From Chitinophaga pinensis (lineage in GTDB: Bacteria; Bacteroidota; Bacteroidia; UBA7662): a stretch of DNA of 37,936 nucleotides. This document shows, in pieces, positions 2,889 to 13,403 of this stretch (its first letter is position 1; each line of letters starts with the position of its first letter). The stretch is from contig CAMCHJ010000002.1 of NCBI GenBank assembly GCA_945874665.1, positions 1-37,936 of the forward strand, given 5' to 3'. The notes beneath the pieces are model-generated. The model had not been told where the DNA came from. It saw nothing but the letters and a program-made list of their open reading frames with translations, and ran no database searches. The position numbers and the translations under genes are program-made.

Positions 2889-4190
2889 ATGCGGATTAAC
2901 AAAACTTATATAATTCTATTTGCCTTTCTTAGTTTAGCACTCTTTGGGTATAAGATTCAAGCATGTAGTATGTATAAAATCACCGTTGATGGAAAAACAA
3001 TGGTTGGTTGTAATGAAGATGCCTGGAGAACAACTTCAAGCATCTGGTTTGAAAATGCTAAAAACAGCCGTGAATATGGCGCAGGCTTTACAGGGTCAAG
3101 ACAGGTAGGAGCAAATAGAACTGCCCCTCAATCAGGAATGAATGAAAAAGGACTTGCATTTTCTCGATTGGCAGCATATTACCCAAAGCAAAAAAAAACA
3201 TTTACAAATAGACTTATAATCGGAAATGAAGTTGATTACCTGACAAGCATCTTACACAAATGTGCAACTGTGAAAGAAGTCAAGAAATATATTGAACAAT
3301 ACGACCATAGTGTGTTTTTAGATGATGTGTTTATCTATGTCGACAGCTCAGGTAGTTATTTGATTGTAGAGCCATATACATTAATAGAAGGTAATGAATC
3401 GCATTATGTACTCTCTAATTTTTGTCCATCGATTACAGACCGTGAACAAGCAAGACAACTCGAACGCTACAGAAATGGAGAAGATTTTTTAAATAATCGT
3501 GAAGTAAATGCCTCTTTATCTTTTTGTAAAGACCTTTCAGACACAATGCATGTTTGCAGAAGCAGAAATGGAGATGGCACACTTCTTACTTCTATTTGGG
3601 ACACACAGGACAAATTGGTTAACCTATACTTTTACCACTCGTTTGATACCACCGTACAATTTAATTTGACTGCAGCCTTGGCGAAAGGCGACCACACCCT
3701 TAGTATCCCCGATTTATTTCCAAAGAACTCAGAATTTGAAAGACTTGCTAACTATAAGACTCCTCATAATACTCCTATTTTTAGAATCTCACTTGTAGTC
3801 TTAGTTGGAATTTTAACCTTTTTCGTCCTTCTCATAGGCCTTTTCTTAATCAGGAATAATAGCATAGGAATCTCTATCAGGGCAGCAATACTCATAGCGG
3901 GGATGAATTTATTATTGGGAGGCTATTTGTTTGTATTAGCTACCAATCTATACATCTACTATTTTGATGCGCCTTACATCCATTACAGTTCAAATTTAAT
4001 AAGTGCCTCATCCTACATGCCGTTTTTACTACTCTTGACTATTGTTCCTTTTACCTTATATACCTTAAAACAAAGTAAATCAATCAAAACAAAACTTTGG
4101 ATAAAGGCCATGTTAGTCTCTAATAACATGATTTATATTGTGTTAATTTTAGCATTTGGGTATTGGGGCTTGTTTAATATTTGGAATTAA
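2889..4190 (+). CDS. Ntn-hydrolase (choloylglycine hydrolase/penicillin acylase-like) with C-terminal membrane domain
   Basis: Residues 1-25 form a signal peptide ending IQA, so cleavage would expose Cys26 as an N-terminal nucleophile (CSMYKITVDG). This is the hallmark of the choloylglycine hydrolase/penicillin V acylase/C45 group, which cuts linear amides. Family-type positions follow: Asp44 in GCNEDAW and Asn85 in SGMNEKGLAFS. After about residue 295 come four predicted membrane helices (about 298-321, 328-355, 371-391 and 402-430), which would tether the enzyme with its catalytic domain outside the cytoplasm. Total length is 433 residues against about 320-350 for stand-alone enzymes. The substrate is unknown; N-acyl lipids or amino acids, bile acids or acyl-homoserine lactones are family possibilities. 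Confidence 0.82.
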   Translation: MRINKTYIILFAFLSLALFGYKIQACSMYKITVDGKTMVGCNEDAWRTTSSIWFENAKNSREYGAGFTGSRQVGANRTAPQSGMNEKGLAFSRLAAYYPKQKKTFTNRLIIGNEVDYLTSILHKCATVKEVKKYIEQYDHSVFLDDVFIYVDSSGSYLIVEPYTLIEGNESHYVLSNFCPSITDREQARQLERYRNGEDFLNNREVNASLSFCKDLSDTMHVCRSRNGDGTLLTSIWDTQDKLVNLYFYHSFDTTVQFNLTAALAKGDHTLSIPDLFPKNSEFERLANYKTPHNTPIFRISLVVLVGILTFFVLLIGLFLIRNNSIGISIRAAILIAGMNLLLGGYLFVLATNLYIYYFDAPYIHYSSNLISASSYMPFLLLLTIVPFTLYTLKQSKSIKTKLWIKAMLVSNNMIYIVLILAFGYWGLFNIWN

Positions 4191-4219
4191 GAAAAAGCAT
4201 TCAACTGCATCTATAACTT

Positions 4220-4323
4220 ATGGCGGGGAAGTGGTAAATTCAAGCTTTTTACATTTAAGTAAGTTTGGTGCTAGCATACGGTCAAATGCTTCGAAATCCG
4301 CTTCTTCACCATGCCCGAAAATG
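4220..4323 (+). repeat. Cassette-like spacer B (shared blocks)
   Basis: The spacer after the Ntn-hydrolase gene repeats the pattern of spacer A. ATGGCG lies at 4220-4225, TAAATTCAAGC at 4235-4245 (identical to spacer A), and the block TTCGAAATCCGC then CCATGCCCGAAAATG lies at 4290-4323. It ends about 58 bases before the next start. The match to spacer A is clear in both position and sequence although the flanking genes are unrelated. Confidence 0.5.
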
Positions 4324-4381
4324 TGAGCAGTCATGCTTGGGTAGGCAGCTAACTCCAAAATACCTGCAAGAAATCAACTAA

Positions 4382-5407
4382 ATGCGTAAGGAACTTTTCA
4401 AATTTATTAAGTACGCTTTGCTGTTATGTGTAGCAGCATGTTTACTTATCGCCTTCATTCCTAGCGTTTATGATGTTCCTCAGTTACAAAAACGTAAAAA
4501 CACGCAATATTGGGATTTACCAACAGGTTCTAAGATTGCCTACACTTTAGTAGCTGCCAAAGGCACAAAGAAACCGCATCCGATTATTTATTTGCACGGA
4601 GGACCTGGAGGATTTGTCTCAAACAGCCACATTAAGTCATTAGCACCGCTTTCAGAAGACGGCTACGACATTTATCTATATGACCAAATCGGTAGCGGGC
4701 TATCAGACAGATTGACAAACATCAAGGAGTATACTGCTGACCGACACAAAAAAGATTTGGAAGAAATCATAAAGAAGATAGGCGCAGAGCAAGTAATCCT
4801 AATCGGACAATCATGGGGTGCTATACTTGCTATATTATTTATAGCTGACAATCCACAAAAAGTTCAGCAGGTTATTTTCACAGGGGCGGGGCCTATTCAA
4901 CCATTTCGTGTGGATTTGCGAAGCACCACCCCACCTGACAGTTTGAACTTGAGGAACCCACCTTACTCAAACAAACAGGCCAATGAAAAATCAAAAAGCG
5001 TCCGAACTGCTGTGGTAAGCTTTTGGGCAAAAGCCTTCGGCAAAAAACTTGCATCTGATAAAGAGGCAGATGATTTTCAAACGCATCTTAATCAAGAATT
5101 GAACAAAGCAACCGTATGTGATACTTCCAAAGCATTGAAAGCGGAAGGTGGAGGAGGTTTTTATGTGCAAGTAATGACCGTGCAGAGCTTCAGTGAAACC
5201 AAAGACCCAAGACCAAAACTTAAAGGCCTGAAAATGCCTATCCTGATTATGAAATGACAGTGCGACAATCAACCATGGGTCTACATGCATGACTATTTAG
5301 AGCACTTTCCAAATTGCCAATTAAAAATTATCCCCGATGCAGGTCATGCTATTTCAGTGGAGCAACCGGAACTTTATCTAAAAACTATGCGTGACTTTTT
5401 GAATTAG
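4382..5407 (+). pseudogene. Alpha/beta-hydrolase (S33-like) interrupted by an in-frame TGA
   Basis: The frame codes for an alpha/beta-hydrolase: an N-terminal membrane or signal segment (residues 10-26), the oxyanion motif HGGPGG (72-77) and the nucleophile elbow GQSWGA with Ser144. At codon 292 (5255-5257) there is a TGA. The same frame then continues without another stop for 49 codons to a TAG at 5405-5407. That tail contains QCDNQPW with the expected catalytic Asp295 and DAGHAISVEQPE with catalytic His322. A GGA-to-TGA change would explain it, since relatives have glycine before this Asp. The truncated 291-residue product would lack two of three catalytic residues. Other genes here stop at TGA, so general recoding is unlikely; read-through or a base-call error remain possible. 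Confidence 0.85.
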
Positions 5408-5420
5408 TACATACATTGCC

Positions 5421-5580
5421 AACAGCTATGGCGTACAATCGCATGAACCACTGACACGGATTTTGCTTCATTTGGCGTACAGCGCAAATAAAAACAGCTG
5501 CGTGAATAATAAACTTTGGCGCTGGTCTCCAGCTTTGGCTTCATAATCCTCCAACCTAAAGTCCGAAACCCTTAGCTGTT
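5421..5580 (+). repeat. Cassette-like spacer C with terminal inverted repeat
   Basis: The spacer between the hydrolase and the methyltransferase has ATGGCG at 5428-5433 after the gene end, and a TTCATAATCC...GTCCGAAACCC block at 5540-5571 before the next start. Its ends form an exact 8-bp inverted repeat: AACAGCTA at 5421-5428 and TAGCTGTT at 5573-5580. This would bring the two ends of the single-stranded spacer together, as in recombination sites of the integron attC type. Sequence match to classical attC cores is weak, so this is a suggestion only. Confidence 0.45.
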
Positions 5581-5606
5581 ATTTTAAAACAACCGATTTT
5601 AGAAAA

Positions 5607-6416
5607 ATGAACACAGACCAAAAGTATATAGAAATAAACCGGCAGTCTTGGAATAACAGAACCGACATACACATACAATCGGAATTTTACGACCAAGCCG
5701 GGTTTCTGAAAGGGAAAAACTCTCTAAATGACATTGAGCTAAACTTGCTTGGCAACATAAAAGGAAAATCGATTTTGCATTTACAATGTCATTTTGGACA
5801 AGACACAATTTCGTTAGGAAGACTTGGTGCAGACGTTACCGGCGTTGACTTGTCGGACAAAGCCATTGACCGTGCAAAACAAATTACAAAGGACACAAAT
5901 TCAAATGCAAAGTTTATTTGCTGCGATGTTTACGACTTACCAAACCATTTAAACGAAAAATTCGATGTGGTATTTACAAGTTATGGCACCATTGGTTGGT
6001 TGCCTGACTTGGACAAGTGGGCCAAAATTATATCCCGGTTTTTAAAGCCAAATGGACAGTTTGTATTTGTAGAGTTTCATCCTGTTGTTTGGATGTTTGA
6101 CGATAACTTTGATAAAATTAGTTACAGATATTTTAATTCTGGAGCCATTATAGAAACAGAAAATGGAACTTACGCAGACAAAAAAGCAGACATAACCCAA
6201 TCCTATGTAATGTGGAATCATGGTTTAAGTGAAGTAATAAACAGCTTAATTAGTAATGGGCTTGAAATCAATGCTCTTGACGAATTTGATTATTCGCCAT
6301 ACAACTGCTTCCAGAACACCCTAGAGTTTGAACCGAATAAATTTAGAATTGAGCATTTAAATAACAAAATACCAATGGTTTATTCAGTAATAGCGACAAA
6401 TAAAAACAATAGGTGA
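5607..6416 (+). CDS. Class I SAM-dependent methyltransferase
   Basis: The 269-residue protein has the Rossmann-type methyltransferase order. Motif I is at residues 56-66 (ILHLQCHFGQD), the ribose-binding acid is Asp81 in VTGVDLS, motif II/III lies at about 103-125 (KFICCDVYDLP and FDVVFTSYG), and a post-motif strand at about 150-160 reads FVFVEFHPV. It resembles the small stand-alone methyltransferases common in Bacteroidota accessory regions. It should be cytoplasmic because no signal is seen. The methyl acceptor is not inferable; neighbours are unrelated. It is the last gene of the AT-rich left region, and its end is followed by spacer D. Confidence 0.88.
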   Translation: MNTDQKYIEINRQSWNNRTDIHIQSEFYDQAGFLKGKNSLNDIELNLLGNIKGKSILHLQCHFGQDTISLGRLGADVTGVDLSDKAIDRAKQITKDTNSNAKFICCDVYDLPNHLNEKFDVVFTSYGTIGWLPDLDKWAKIISRFLKPNGQFVFVEFHPVVWMFDDNFDKISYRYFNSGAIIETENGTYADKKADITQSYVMWNHGLSEVINSLISNGLEINALDEFDYSPYNCFQNTLEFEPNKFRIEHLNNKIPMVYSVIATNKNNR

Positions 6417-6440
6417 TATTCGTTTTCAAAAAGCGGCAGT

Positions 6441-6477
6441 TTGGCGCTTTCATGAAAGCACAGCATTAAATCCAAGC
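6441..6477 (+). repeat. Cassette-like spacer D (partial)
   Basis: After the methyltransferase stop, TTGGCG (6441-6446) and TAAATCCAAGC (6467-6477, one base different from spacers A and B) recur in the expected order. The downstream CCGC...CCCGAAA block is missing, which fits the right-hand end of the shared-spacer region. Confidence 0.35.
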
Positions 6478-6617
6478 CTTTTTAAATAGTTCTGAAAAGC
6501 CCCACCCTCAGGGTAGCTGCAAGCCCTTGCACATCAACCTGTGCTTGTATAGATAATTTATTGTCTTTCAAATAGATAAAAGATTGTACTAACTACAAAA
6601 TGTATTTGAATTCAAGC

Positions 6618-6637
6618 TGATTTTAGTGCTAAAATCA
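6618..6637. promoter_or_regulatory. 20-bp palindrome upstream of eutBC-like gene
   Basis: TGATTTTAG and CTAAAATCA form a perfect 9-bp inverted repeat around a TG spacer, about 105 bases before the ATG of the lyase gene. A second small repeat (GTAC-TTTA-GTAC) follows at about 6647-6658. The size and symmetry suit a dimeric regulator site; a small hairpin is the alternative. No regulator gene is next to it. Confidence 0.35.
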
Positions 6638-6742
6638 AACCATTTCGTACTTTAGTACATCGTGCTGGTACTCGAGTGGAATGATCCTATCGCCCACGGC
6701 GCAACCCATAATGTTAAAAGTGATAAATGATATCCCCAGCTC

Positions 6743-9121
6743 ATGAATAAAACCAGATTTGGCTTCCATCACAGTAAGGCAAAGGAGACTCCGAAGCAAC
6801 ATTTAGCCTTTTCTAACTACGTTCCTCGCCGAGATTTCCTGCTTCAACTGGGATTGGTGGGCATTTCGATGATGCTTACCAAGGTTCATGTTTTCGGTAT
6901 GCCGGCCTTTCCGAAAAATCGGCTCATTGACTTTAAGGCCTCGCTAAAGGAGGAGGATATTTTCACATACATCCGTCGAATCACAGGAGGATTCGACATA
7001 CTGCTTTACAAACAGTTGGTTGGTGCGGCCAATGAATTCAAAGAAGGCGATGAAATTGCGGGCATTGCCGCTGCTCATGAGGGTGCTAGAAAAATGGCAC
7101 GCGAGCTTATCGCCAATACGCTGATTTCTGATGTTTTCGAACATCCCCTTTTTAAGGACGAACAGTATGACCTCATTCAAAGCACTACTGTACATGACGA
7201 GAAAGTGATGGGCATGAACTTCCGTCAATTAAAAGCATTTCTCCTTGAATCAGATGAAGCCGCCATCAAAATCATCATGCCTTCACTTTCAAGCGACGTT
7301 ATTGCATTAACTGTAAAACTCCTAACCAATGACGAATTAATACGTATTAGCAGCAAAGTCTTTAATCCACTACCCAACAGTAACATTGGAGCAAAAGGTT
7401 ATGTTAGTGCACGCGTGCAGCCAAATTCGCCGACGGATAACATCGAAGATATAGTATGGCAGGTATTTGATGCTTGGTCATATGGAGTAGGCGATTTGGT
7501 GCTTGGAACCAACCCCGTTTCGAGTGACCCGATTATGGTGGCACAAATCGAAGCGGCGCTTCACGATTTGCTTGTTACGTTCGAGTTGGAGCATACAATG
7601 CCGAATTGCGTGCTTTCACATATTGACATTCAATCGCATGTTGAAAATATACAGCCAGGCACCACTGGTATTTGGTTTCAAAGCCTCGCAGGTACGGTTG
7701 ATGCCAATCAAACCTTTGATGTGACCATAGAAAAAATGCAGGCACATGCCGATGCTCGGACAGGCAACCCCTATGGGCTTTATGCCGAAACAGGCCAAGG
7801 GGCCGACGCCACCAACGGCCATGGTGAAGGTTTTGATATGGTTGTACATGAGTCACGCAAATACGGCTTCTTGCGAGCTTTAAAGCAACGCATGAATAAG
7901 CAAAAAATCAACAATACCGAGCCTTGGGTATTTCTCAATGATGTAGCTGGCTTTATTGGACCAGAGGTATTTAGGACCAAAGAGCAACTTGTTCGTTGTT
8001 GCCTAGAAGACTTGGTAATGGGCAAGCTGCATGGGCTTACGATTGGGCTCGACATCTGCACGACGCTACACATGGACGTTACCCTAGATGATCTTGATTG
8101 GTGCATTGATCAGATTATGCCCGCCAATCCCGCCTACTTTATGGCCCTTCCAACGAAAAACGACCCAATGCTCAGCTACCTCACCACCTCTTTTGCCGAC
8201 CATGTGCGGGTGCGTGAGCAATTTGGCTACAAGGTAAATGATGCGATGTGGGCGTTTTTTAAGCGCATCGAAGTCATTGGCATCGACAATAAGCCCGCCG
8301 CAAATTTTGGCCAACCTAACCACGTTTATTTGCGCTATTGTAGAGCAAAAGGCGATATGCGCCCCGATGAAGCCATCTTGATGGAAGGCAAAGCTGCCAT
8401 GGACCGCATCCGCAAACGAGGCGTGCCTATTGCCGAAGGACACGGGGAAAAATTTTGGCAAATGCCCCCGTCATTAGACACGGAAATTCGGGAGCTATAT
8501 AAAGACGCCAAATATTGTTTATGGACTGAATGGGAGCTTGCCTATCTGCAGTCTATCAGAAATGCCATTGTAATATCATCGATGTCGAGCGACAGAATTG
8601 ACTATGTATATCATCCTGCTAGTGGTGAGCGCATTTCGCCTGAGAGTGTATTAGTCATACAAAGTCTCCGCAAAAAACTCAAAAAGAACCCCGCTGATGT
8701 GCAGATTATCATTTCCGACGGCTTGAACACCCGATCACTTATGGATGAAGAGCACCTCGAAACATTCCTGCCTGCCATCTACAAGAATTTGGCTGCACTC
8801 AATTTAACTATTGCTGAAGCGCCTATTGTGATTCGGAACGGACGTGTGCGCGCTGGCTACGAAGTTGGGGAGCACCTTTTTGGCAAAGCGGGAATGAGCA
8901 AACATTGTATTGTTCATATCATTGGCGAGCGGCCTGGTACCATGCACCGCAATTTCTCAGTCTATATTACTGCAGCACCCGCATCCACTTGGAATTACCA
9001 TGGCAAAGTCGATCACGATATTACACGTGTTATTTCAGGCATCAGCAATACAGCCTATTTGCCAAAAGCCGCAGCAACAGAAGTGACCGCGATTGTTGCG
9101 AAACTGATGGATGCAATGTAG
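6743..9121 (+). CDS. Ethanolamine ammonia-lyase, EutB-EutC fusion with Tat-like N-terminus
   Basis: This single 792-residue chain holds both subunits of adenosylcobalamin-dependent ethanolamine ammonia-lyase, which converts ethanolamine to acetaldehyde and ammonia. The EutB part spans about residues 78-505. Residues matching known EutB active-site positions are present: Arg224 and Gln226 in SARVQPN, Asn257 in GTNPV, Glu349 in AETGQG and Asp437 in GLDICTT. The EutC part spans about 580-792, with DVQIIISDGLN (652-662) and IGERPG (727-732). The usual EutC N-terminal GRAG motif is not clear, and a linker of about 70 residues joins the halves. EutB and EutC are normally separate proteins of about 453 and 295 residues. 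The N-terminus has a twin-arginine pattern (PRRDFLLQLGLVGISMML, residues 28-45), suggesting export. No eutA, eutH or shell genes are nearby. Confidence 0.93.
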   Translation: MNKTRFGFHHSKAKETPKQHLAFSNYVPRRDFLLQLGLVGISMMLTKVHVFGMPAFPKNRLIDFKASLKEEDIFTYIRRITGGFDILLYKQLVGAANEFKEGDEIAGIAAAHEGARKMARELIANTLISDVFEHPLFKDEQYDLIQSTTVHDEKVMGMNFRQLKAFLLESDEAAIKIIMPSLSSDVIALTVKLLTNDELIRISSKVFNPLPNSNIGAKGYVSARVQPNSPTDNIEDIVWQVFDAWSYGVGDLVLGTNPVSSDPIMVAQIEAALHDLLVTFELEHTMPNCVLSHIDIQSHVENIQPGTTGIWFQSLAGTVDANQTFDVTIEKMQAHADARTGNPYGLYAETGQGADATNGHGEGFDMVVHESRKYGFLRALKQRMNKQKINNTEPWVFLNDVAGFIGPEVFRTKEQLVRCCLEDLVMGKLHGLTIGLDICTTLHMDVTLDDLDWCIDQIMPANPAYFMALPTKNDPMLSYLTTSFADHVRVREQFGYKVNDAMWAFFKRIEVIGIDNKPAANFGQPNHVYLRYCRAKGDMRPDEAILMEGKAAMDRIRKRGVPIAEGHGEKFWQMPPSLDTEIRELYKDAKYCLWTEWELAYLQSIRNAIVISSMSSDRIDYVYHPASGERISPESVLVIQSLRKKLKKNPADVQIIISDGLNTRSLMDEEHLETFLPAIYKNLAALNLTIAEAPIVIRNGRVRAGYEVGEHLFGKAGMSKHCIVHIIGERPGTMHRNFSVYITAAPASTWNYHGKVDHDITRVISGISNTAYLPKAAATEVTAIVAKLMDAM

Positions 9122-9260
9122 AAGTTAACAAGTATATTCGACACCTTAAATCCGTAACAGGGCGGCAGTTAATGGTTCTAGAAATCGATACCTAAACTGC
9201 AGCTTATGAAAATAAAGATCAGACCCTAACTTGTTAGCAGTGTGGCACAACCAAATAAAA

Positions 9261-10919
9261 ATGAAAAACAAACCAACACCAGCAATCACCACCCTCACCC
9301 GCGCTATGGCTACGTGCATGGTTTTTTTAGCAATTTTACAATCCCCTGTTTCGAGCCAGGCACAACTGATAACAGACGATTTTGAAGGAAATGGCAATAT
9401 CACAACCTGGTATGGCGACAACTGCAGCCTGAATACAAGCTTCGCAAACCCACACCCGCAAGGCCTCAACACATCGGCTAACGTACTAAAATACCACGAC
9501 CAAGGCAGCCAATTCGCCAACGCACGCTTTGACGTGCCCACTAACTTGGACCTGGCTAATCAACATACCTTTTCCCTAAAAATATATGTGCCCAGCAGCA
9601 GCATCACCGGCAATGCACCCAATCAAGTTTCGTTAAAGCTTCAAAATGGCGCCAGCAACACGCCTTGGGCCACACAATCTGAAATCATTAAGCCAGTGGT
9701 GTTAGACCAATGGCAAATCCTCCATTTTGATTTTTCAAACGATCCGTATATCAATTTAGACCCCAATTCACTGCCACCGATACAACGCACAGACTTTAAC
9801 CGCGTACTCATTCAGGTAAATGGTGAAAACAACTCATTTCAGGTCATGGCTTATCTGGACGACATTTTTTTTAACGGCACCTTACCTACTCCCTCGCCTT
9901 ATACCCAGTTGGTTTGGTCGGATGAGTTTAACGGCAATGGACAAATAGACACTTCCAAGTGGTTTCACCAAACCCAATTGCCAAACATTGGAAGTTGGTA
10001 TAATGGCGAAATTCAGCATTACACCAATCGCTTAGCCAATAGCTTTGTAAGCAACGGATCATTGCACATTTCGGCTAAAAAAGAAAATTTCACAAACCAA
10101 GGACATACCAAAACACATACCTCAGCCCGTTTAAACTCAAAATTTGCCTTCACTTATGGGCGTGTCGAAGTGCGCGCCATCCTGCCTACCGGCATAGGTA
10201 CGTGGCCTGCTATTTGGATGCTTGGCAAAAACATTGATGAAAATGGGGCTTATTGGGACAATAACGGGTTTGGCACCACTCCTTGGCCAGCTTGTGGCGA
10301 AATTGACATCATGGAACATTGGGGTAACAATCAAAATTTTGTTCAGAGCGCTATGCACACGCCATCCAGCTTTGGTGGTACCATCAACAAGGGAGGCCAA
10401 ATGATACCCACTGCAAGTAGCGCTTATCACGTTTACGAACTCGAATGGAGTCCTACCAAAATGGTGTTCAGCATTGATAACCGCGTACATTATACTTATG
10501 ACCCACCGGTTAAAAACGCCAGTACATGGCCTTTCACAACCGACCAATATTTACTTTTGAATATTGCCATCCAACCCAGCATACTGCCCAGCTTTACGCA
10601 AAGCGATATGATTGTAGATTATGTGCGCGTTTATCAACTAGATGTTACCAGCGTGGCTGAAATCGCAGGCCGGCAGCCGTTATTGGTCTATCCAAATCCC
10701 GTTAACGATGCGGTCACCATTGAACTCCCCAATATCCCCAACCAGGTTGTTACTGTACGGCTGTTCAACACACAAGGACAGCTTCTTAGGGATCAAAAAA
10801 TTGCCTCAGAGCAACATTTGATAGTACTCAATCAACTGGAAGCTTTACCCACAGGCCTGTACCACCTGCTGATAGAAACCGACAGCGGTCGCCACTTCGC
10901 TAAATTCAATAAAAAATAG
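9261..10919 (+). CDS. Secreted GH16 beta-glucanase (laminarinase-like) with T9SS sorting domain
   Basis: The protein starts with a signal peptide (MKNKPTPAITTLTRAMATCM then a hydrophobic run, cleaved near SSQAQ). The ATG at 9261 is preferred over an upstream in-frame TTG at 9231. Residues 37-205 look like a carbohydrate-binding beta-sandwich. Residues 218-460 are a GH16 domain with the catalytic signature GEIDIMEHWG (346-355): Glu347 nucleophile, Glu352 acid/base. GH16 enzymes cut beta-1,3 or mixed-linkage glucans such as laminarin. The last 75 residues (VYPNPVNDAVTIELP through GLYHLLIET) form a type A T9SS sorting domain, so the enzyme is exported across the outer membrane. No SusC/SusD pair is nearby, so it is not in a typical utilisation locus. 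Confidence 0.93.
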   Translation: MKNKPTPAITTLTRAMATCMVFLAILQSPVSSQAQLITDDFEGNGNITTWYGDNCSLNTSFANPHPQGLNTSANVLKYHDQGSQFANARFDVPTNLDLANQHTFSLKIYVPSSSITGNAPNQVSLKLQNGASNTPWATQSEIIKPVVLDQWQILHFDFSNDPYINLDPNSLPPIQRTDFNRVLIQVNGENNSFQVMAYLDDIFFNGTLPTPSPYTQLVWSDEFNGNGQIDTSKWFHQTQLPNIGSWYNGEIQHYTNRLANSFVSNGSLHISAKKENFTNQGHTKTHTSARLNSKFAFTYGRVEVRAILPTGIGTWPAIWMLGKNIDENGAYWDNNGFGTTPWPACGEIDIMEHWGNNQNFVQSAMHTPSSFGGTINKGGQMIPTASSAYHVYELEWSPTKMVFSIDNRVHYTYDPPVKNASTWPFTTDQYLLLNIAIQPSILPSFTQSDMIVDYVRVYQLDVTSVAEIAGRQPLLVYPNPVNDAVTIELPNIPNQVVTVRLFNTQGQLLRDQKIASEQHLIVLNQLEALPTGLYHLLIETDSGRHFAKFNKK

Positions 10920-11081
10920 GCCCTGCATTACAAACAAAAATCGGTTAGCAGGTATAATTTTCTTTTGTTTTGGATTAAATGAACAGCAGCAATCCCATGC
11001 AGCAAGCAAGTAAATTAGAAAGCATGCTATCCATAACAGAACTTTATTGGAAAGCTATAGGTTATGTACCCATTGAACTAA

Positions 11082-13403
<2,322 letters not shown>

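Follow-up and report, generated by a model that had tools for sequence, protein, structure and literature searches.

Radical enzymes that depend on adenosylcobalamin (AdoCbl) are usually regarded as enzymes of the cytoplasm or of microcompartments, and as needing fresh coenzyme and ATP-driven repair. For one of them, ethanolamine ammonia-lyase (EAL), microcompartment targeting in Salmonella depends on the front of the EutC subunit (PMC9426561). EutB and EutC fused in one chain (EutBC) are reported, as Pcar_0491 and Pcar_0467, in the passages on Pelobacter carbinolicus of PMC3543383, and twin-arginine translocation (Tat) signals are present on 27 of 29 RdhA proteins (reductive dehalogenases; PMC4918011). 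The window analyzed here, i.e., the whole stretch of 37,936 nucleotides from Chitinophaga pinensis (contig CAMCHJ010000002.1), carries a fused eutBC gene at 6743–9121, the product of which belongs to a large EAL clade in which export signals are conserved but vary in type. As far as the literature searched shows, it is this clade that is new, the fusion being already known; no report of an exported EAL was found, in a search that misses most subscription journals. An earlier note, made from the letters of the window alone, had described the product as a single-chain EutB–EutC EAL with a twin-arginine signal, and it correctly flagged the location as the interesting part.

Distribution and Phylogeny of the EutBC Clade with Export Signals

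A first scan seeded with the window protein yielded 68 loci, many of them from metagenome bins, and 66 rows with a complete N-terminus entered the first tree. Their signals, classed by hand with simple rules and by eye, comprised 45 of Tat type (RR or RK), 12 of lipoprotein type and eight of the general secretory (Sec) type, with one degraded signal (L014). The bias of this window-seeded scan was checked by sampling three phyla by the EutB domain alone, where 56 of 887 genomes contained EutB. The EutB proteins of the domain-based sample form two groups, one canonical and scoring strongly against Pfam, the other divergent and fused, and an export signal was present in 26 of the 28 clade members versus none of the 29 other EutB proteins (Fisher p 3e-14, a value that ignores relatedness). 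In a second tree of 102 sequences (both trees come from quick searches and have a single measure of support), the export clade formed a single branch with a Shimodaira–Hasegawa-like approximate likelihood ratio (SH-aLRT) support of 100. It spans at least six phyla, with members in Bacteroidota, Balneolota, Planctomycetota, Myxococcota, Gemmatimonadota, a Desulfobacterota-type lineage and some Pseudomonadota, and the nearest relatives of the window protein are Bacteroidota.

Two changes on the tree suffice for the no-signal state, which is consistent with a single gain of the signal at the base of the clade and one loss in the pair L100 and L104. The type of signal flips repeatedly among Tat, lipoprotein and Sec, with 13 changes over all labels and at least six forced for Tat, and hydrophobicity cleanly separates the Tat signals (0.92–2.38) from the Sec types (2.48–3.28). 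TatC was detected in 17 of 18 other clade genomes, besides the source genome. That the route varies while the destination stays argues strongly, by comparison, for the importance of the destination; the trait conserved in the clade, as read from the predicted signals, is export and not Tat as such, and the clade is very likely exported from the cytoplasm. The Tat route proposed in the earlier note stands as the likely one for the window copy but not as a rule of the clade, in which Sec and lipoprotein signals replace Tat repeatedly.

The fusion, which had been presented as an unusual feature, is less distinctive: it is described in the P. carbinolicus passages mentioned above, and signal-less fusions occur elsewhere in the tree (L115–117, L096, L099 and L133). 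Since these signal-less relatives are fused as well, the novelty lies in the location and not in the fusion, and export as a by-product of fusion is ruled out. Among them, L115, L116 and L117 (Desulfobacterota) represent a fusion that is independent and joins EutB and EutC of canonical type, 705–706 aa in length, with no signal and about 55% to E. coli EutB. L096 and L099 (Planctomycetota) represent another, separate kind of EutBC, fused and signal-less, with alanine in place of the catalytic D362 (E. coli numbering) and the other catalytic residues kept.

Predicted Export Signal of the Window Protein

The gene and its signal region comprise the following features.

6743–9121, + strand: fused eutBC gene, ATG start, 792 codons plus stop (open reading frame (ORF), Pfam EutB and EutC)
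6743–6826, + strand: signal n-region, residues 1–28, disordered (predicted local distance difference test (pLDDT) <50) and fast-changing, nearly all codon changes altering the amino acid
6827–6841, + strand: twin-arginine motif RRDFL, residues 29–33, R29 at ≥90% of 65 sequences and kept under codon changes
6827–6877, + strand: signal h-region, residues 29–45, a modelled helix (hydrophobicity and AlphaFold model)
6890–6898, + strand: likely signal peptidase I site V50-F51-G52 (aligned relatives; −3/−1 rule)

The stretch after RRDFL is moderately hydrophobic, with a Kyte–Doolittle 13-residue maximum of 2.03, a value that falls within the range of the Tat signals and is lower than in any Sec member. 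Between the window gene and its relatives, codons 1–28 have 0–3 synonymous versus 9–24 amino-acid changes, while the arginine pair that follows is constant despite varied codons (CGC CGA, CGC AGA, CGG CGC and CGT CGT), which upholds the proposed twin-arginine signal. A rule requiring the pair plus a hydrophobic stretch matched 49 of 70 fused homologues versus 13 of 464 neighbouring ORFs, with RK or Sec-type signals in further homologues, and this control together with the conservation rules out a chance motif. A wrongly assigned start codon was likewise rejected: the next methionine falls downstream of the arginine pair, and relatives with other starts retain RRDFL. At the position of V-F-G 50–52 the relatives carry small residues (A-F-A, C-F-A, V-R-A and A-F-S), and the signal is probably cleaved after residue 52. 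Of the Tat genes that the earlier note had wanted looked for, the source genome encodes TatC (E 5.6e-60, in a search for TatC alone).

Domain Architecture and Catalytic Residues

The domains and the catalytic positions are located as follows.

6956–8329, + strand: EutB domain, a radical triosephosphate isomerase (TIM) barrel, residues 72–529 (Pfam; model versus 3abo_A)
8309–9118, + strand: EutC domain, residues 523–792, equivalent to EutC residues 57–287 (model versus 5ysr_D; Pfam)
7412–8143, + strand: span of the catalytic residues R224, Q226, N257, S314, E349, F404, D437 and M467 (alignment to E. coli EutB)

Both Pfam families match the single 792-aa ORF, EutB at residues 89–517 (E 1.7e-127, 426.4 bits versus a cut-off of 25) and EutC at residues 600–790 (E 3.6e-30, 105.5 bits versus 25.8), confirming the single-chain architecture. 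The NCBIfam EutB threshold was passed narrowly (555.2 versus 554), while the NCBIfam EutC equivalog threshold was missed in this protein (78.5 versus 230). The gene is the only EutB copy in the source genome (2.29 Mb assembly, 35 contigs, 96% complete). An AlphaFold model of the fusion, built with 64 homologues as input, had a pLDDT of 86 and a predicted template modelling score (pTM) of 0.84, and both domains matched EAL structures: residues 72–529 the E. coli large subunit 3abo_A (Z 40.5, root-mean-square deviation (rmsd) 2.2, 429 residues) and residues 523–792 the small subunit 5ysr_D (Z 23.8, rmsd 2.8, 230 residues). The model is 27–28% identical to E. coli EutB. The folded body starts near residue 60–70, and residues 40–57 are poorly ordered. 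From these two structural matches it follows that the subunits are joined almost directly and that the front of EutC is missing. EutC homology begins at EutC residue 57, so the first ~56 residues, the microcompartment targeting region, are absent, and the Pfam EutC alignment begins only at profile position 50; the altered EutC N-terminus that the earlier note had reported is therefore real.

All eight positions listed above match, with the same amino acid, residues of E. coli EutB that serve catalysis or substrate contact (R160, Q162, N193, S247, E287, F329, D362 and M392, respectively). Seven of the eight are invariant in the clade, M392 being replaced by isoleucine in two members, and the EutC motifs SDGL, GRV and GERPG are retained. 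It is fairly probable that the proteins of the clade function as AdoCbl-dependent lyases outside the cytoplasm.

Gene Neighbourhood and Cofactor Supply

The source genome contains a PduO-type adenosyltransferase and a methylmalonyl-CoA mutase, suggesting that AdoCbl is probably made by the organism. The sole EutA-like match in a genome-wide search was identified as FtsA and rejected as a EutA candidate, so that no reactivase was found in the source genome, the earlier note having reported none nearby. Likewise, 17 of 18 clade genomes yielded nothing like EutA except short FtsA-like fragments. The exception, Polyangium (G304; L134 / G304:C213, G304:C184), has a true EutA that adjoins a second, signal-less fused EutBC, and its exported EutBC copy, of Tat-lipoprotein type, lies on a different contig from both. 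The reported lack of Eut shell, reactivase and transporter genes near the window gene also holds among the window ORFs scanned, which are not all of its ORFs, with the search for shell genes confined to the window. An Rfam riboswitch search of positions 4000–12000 gave zero matches, and a promoter and terminator scan showed no excess over shuffled sequence.

In Sec-type (Geobacter-like) loci, EutBC lies among genes for a PotD-like (polyamine-type) binding protein, a BtuC-like permease, a periplasmic binding protein and an ATP-binding cassette (ABC) ATPase whose closest matches are corrinoid transporters, and in another Sec group an aldehyde ferredoxin oxidoreductase gene lies upstream. These neighbours fit an amine substrate, a need for cobalamin and an aldehyde product, respectively. 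The window locus is without PotD-, Btu- or aldehyde-oxidoreductase-type neighbours.

Several further genes were recorded around EutBC. The conserved run in the Sec-type loci (L047 3042–13298, also L050, L052, L042 and L045) comprises PotD-like, outer-membrane-like Gcw_chp, BtuC/BtuD/BtuF-like, MoxR ATPase and DUF58/VWA genes. In the window, the next gene downstream (9231–10919, + strand) encodes a glycosidase of family GH16 that bears a sorting domain for type IX secretion, and two genes downstream (11106–13403, + strand) lies a KatG-type catalase-peroxidase with its own Sec-type signal, possibly an exported peroxidase. The protein encoded at 2889–4190 (+ strand) weakly resembles C45 acyltransferases in its N-terminal region (E 1.2e-5), and its C-terminal half is hydrophobic.

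Proposed Function and Alternative Explanations

We infer export, cleavage, cofactor binding, substrate, activity and physiological role of the window protein from its sequence and relatives. In the account that we favour, and hold to be somewhat probable as a whole, the protein is an extracytoplasmic EAL that acts on ethanolamine and is exported by Tat in the window copy. The chain would be carried out by the Tat translocon via its RRDFL signal, probably lose the signal after residue 52, and form an EAL-like enzyme whose EutB and EutC parts are covalently linked. With AdoCbl as its coenzyme, this enzyme would turn ethanolamine into acetaldehyde and ammonia in the periplasm; lipoprotein-type relatives would perform the same reaction attached to a membrane. 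Ammonia would thereby be freed from ethanolamine headgroups outside the inner membrane and acetaldehyde kept from the cytoplasm, with placement outside the cytoplasm standing in, as a spatial solution, for the Eut microcompartment. Tat members could in principle carry AdoCbl out already bound. A Sec substrate cannot leave folded with its cofactor, so that Sec-type members must, given the known mechanism of Sec, fold and bind the cofactor outside, where AdoCbl would have to be available. The chances are about even that the whole branch performs AdoCbl radical catalysis outside the cytoplasm with the Sec members taking up AdoCbl in the periplasm, which would imply an extracytoplasmic AdoCbl pool and a life without ATP-driven reactivation.

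Several observations weigh against this account. L100 and L104 (Planctomycetota), one small branch, begin at the EutB domain without a signal, likely through secondary loss, and the signal of L014 is degraded, so export is not absolutely required. The homologues without the arginine pair and starting at about residue 65, which the earlier note had named as the contrary case, are confined to L100 and L104, as the Sec-type relatives lack the arginines but carry a Sec signal instead. The RK-type signals are less certain as Tat signals, and the Bacteroidota gene context offers no functional link. The known AdoCbl radical enzymes become inactivated and rely on repair driven by ATP (EutA), of which a periplasmic enzyme could hardly make use, and the account presupposes, at least for the Sec-type members, AdoCbl in the periplasm. 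The reactivation objection is offset by the EAL of Acinetobacter baumannii, which works without EutA (PMC9426561).

Three other explanations were weighed. The first, an exported AdoCbl radical lyase that naturally acts on an amino alcohol other than ethanolamine, would suit the distance of the clade from canonical EutB, at the 27–28% identity given above, and a Bacteroidota gene context that does not point to ethanolamine; it is, however, unlikely, as every listed substrate-contact residue of EAL is kept and some members have a polyamine-type binding protein and an aldehyde oxidoreductase as neighbours. Similarly improbable is an exported protein that mainly captures or stores cobalamin, with a role like that of the BtuG surface lipoproteins of Bacteroides and not that of an enzyme. 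Bacteroides does have B12-capturing surface lipoproteins (PMC6143338), several clade members have lipoprotein signals, and the Sec-type relatives adjoin BtuC/BtuD/BtuF-like genes, but R160, Q162, N193, E287, F329 and D362, which serve substrate binding or radical chemistry and are invariant in the clade, would be needless for a mere binder. An enzyme kept inside or anchored to the cytoplasmic face, with the N-terminal helix as an uncleaved anchor or a misleading sequence, is about as unlikely as the other two, since, despite L100 and L104 lacking the N-terminus and the signal-less A. baumannii EAL being seen at the cell membrane (PMC9426561), the Tat, lipobox and Sec signals replace one another on the tree, the lipoboxes and typical cleavage sites imply translocation, and a twin arginine is needless for a cytoplasmic anchor.

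If the extracytoplasmic EAL account is true, a widespread clade exported by each lineage's own route would alter the usual picture of AdoCbl radical enzymes, point to another way of coping with acetaldehyde toxicity and pose a question open to testing, namely by what means AdoCbl gets to the periplasm, while Bacteroidota and Planctomycetota would gain a possible extracellular use of phospholipid ethanolamine.

Comparison with Known Systems

The fused EutBC of P. carbinolicus resembles the Geobacter-type loci described here, lacking eutA and having periplasmic binding protein and cobalamin transport neighbours, whereas the window copy is of Tat type and is without such neighbours; the passages concerned cover the fusion and its context and not export, and the comparison is one of descriptions only (PMC3543383). 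The A. baumannii EAL works without a microcompartment and EutA and was seen at the cell membrane, but consists of two subunits, has no signal sequence and is not reported as exported (PMC9426561).

Canonical EutB and EutC of E. coli and Salmonella (PDB 3abo and 5ysr) share both domains, the fold and the catalytic residues with the window protein, which differs from them in being a single chain with an export signal, no EutC targeting region and a position in a deep separate clade; its locus has no eut operon, its genome no EutA, and the window ORFs scanned no shell genes. RdhA proteins have an unrelated fold and Fe-S clusters, and they are not AdoCbl radical enzymes. As cobalamin-type enzymes with Tat signals, they nevertheless set a precedent for corrinoid proteins being exported by Tat, and they are considered to leave the cytoplasm folded with their cofactor (PMC4918011).
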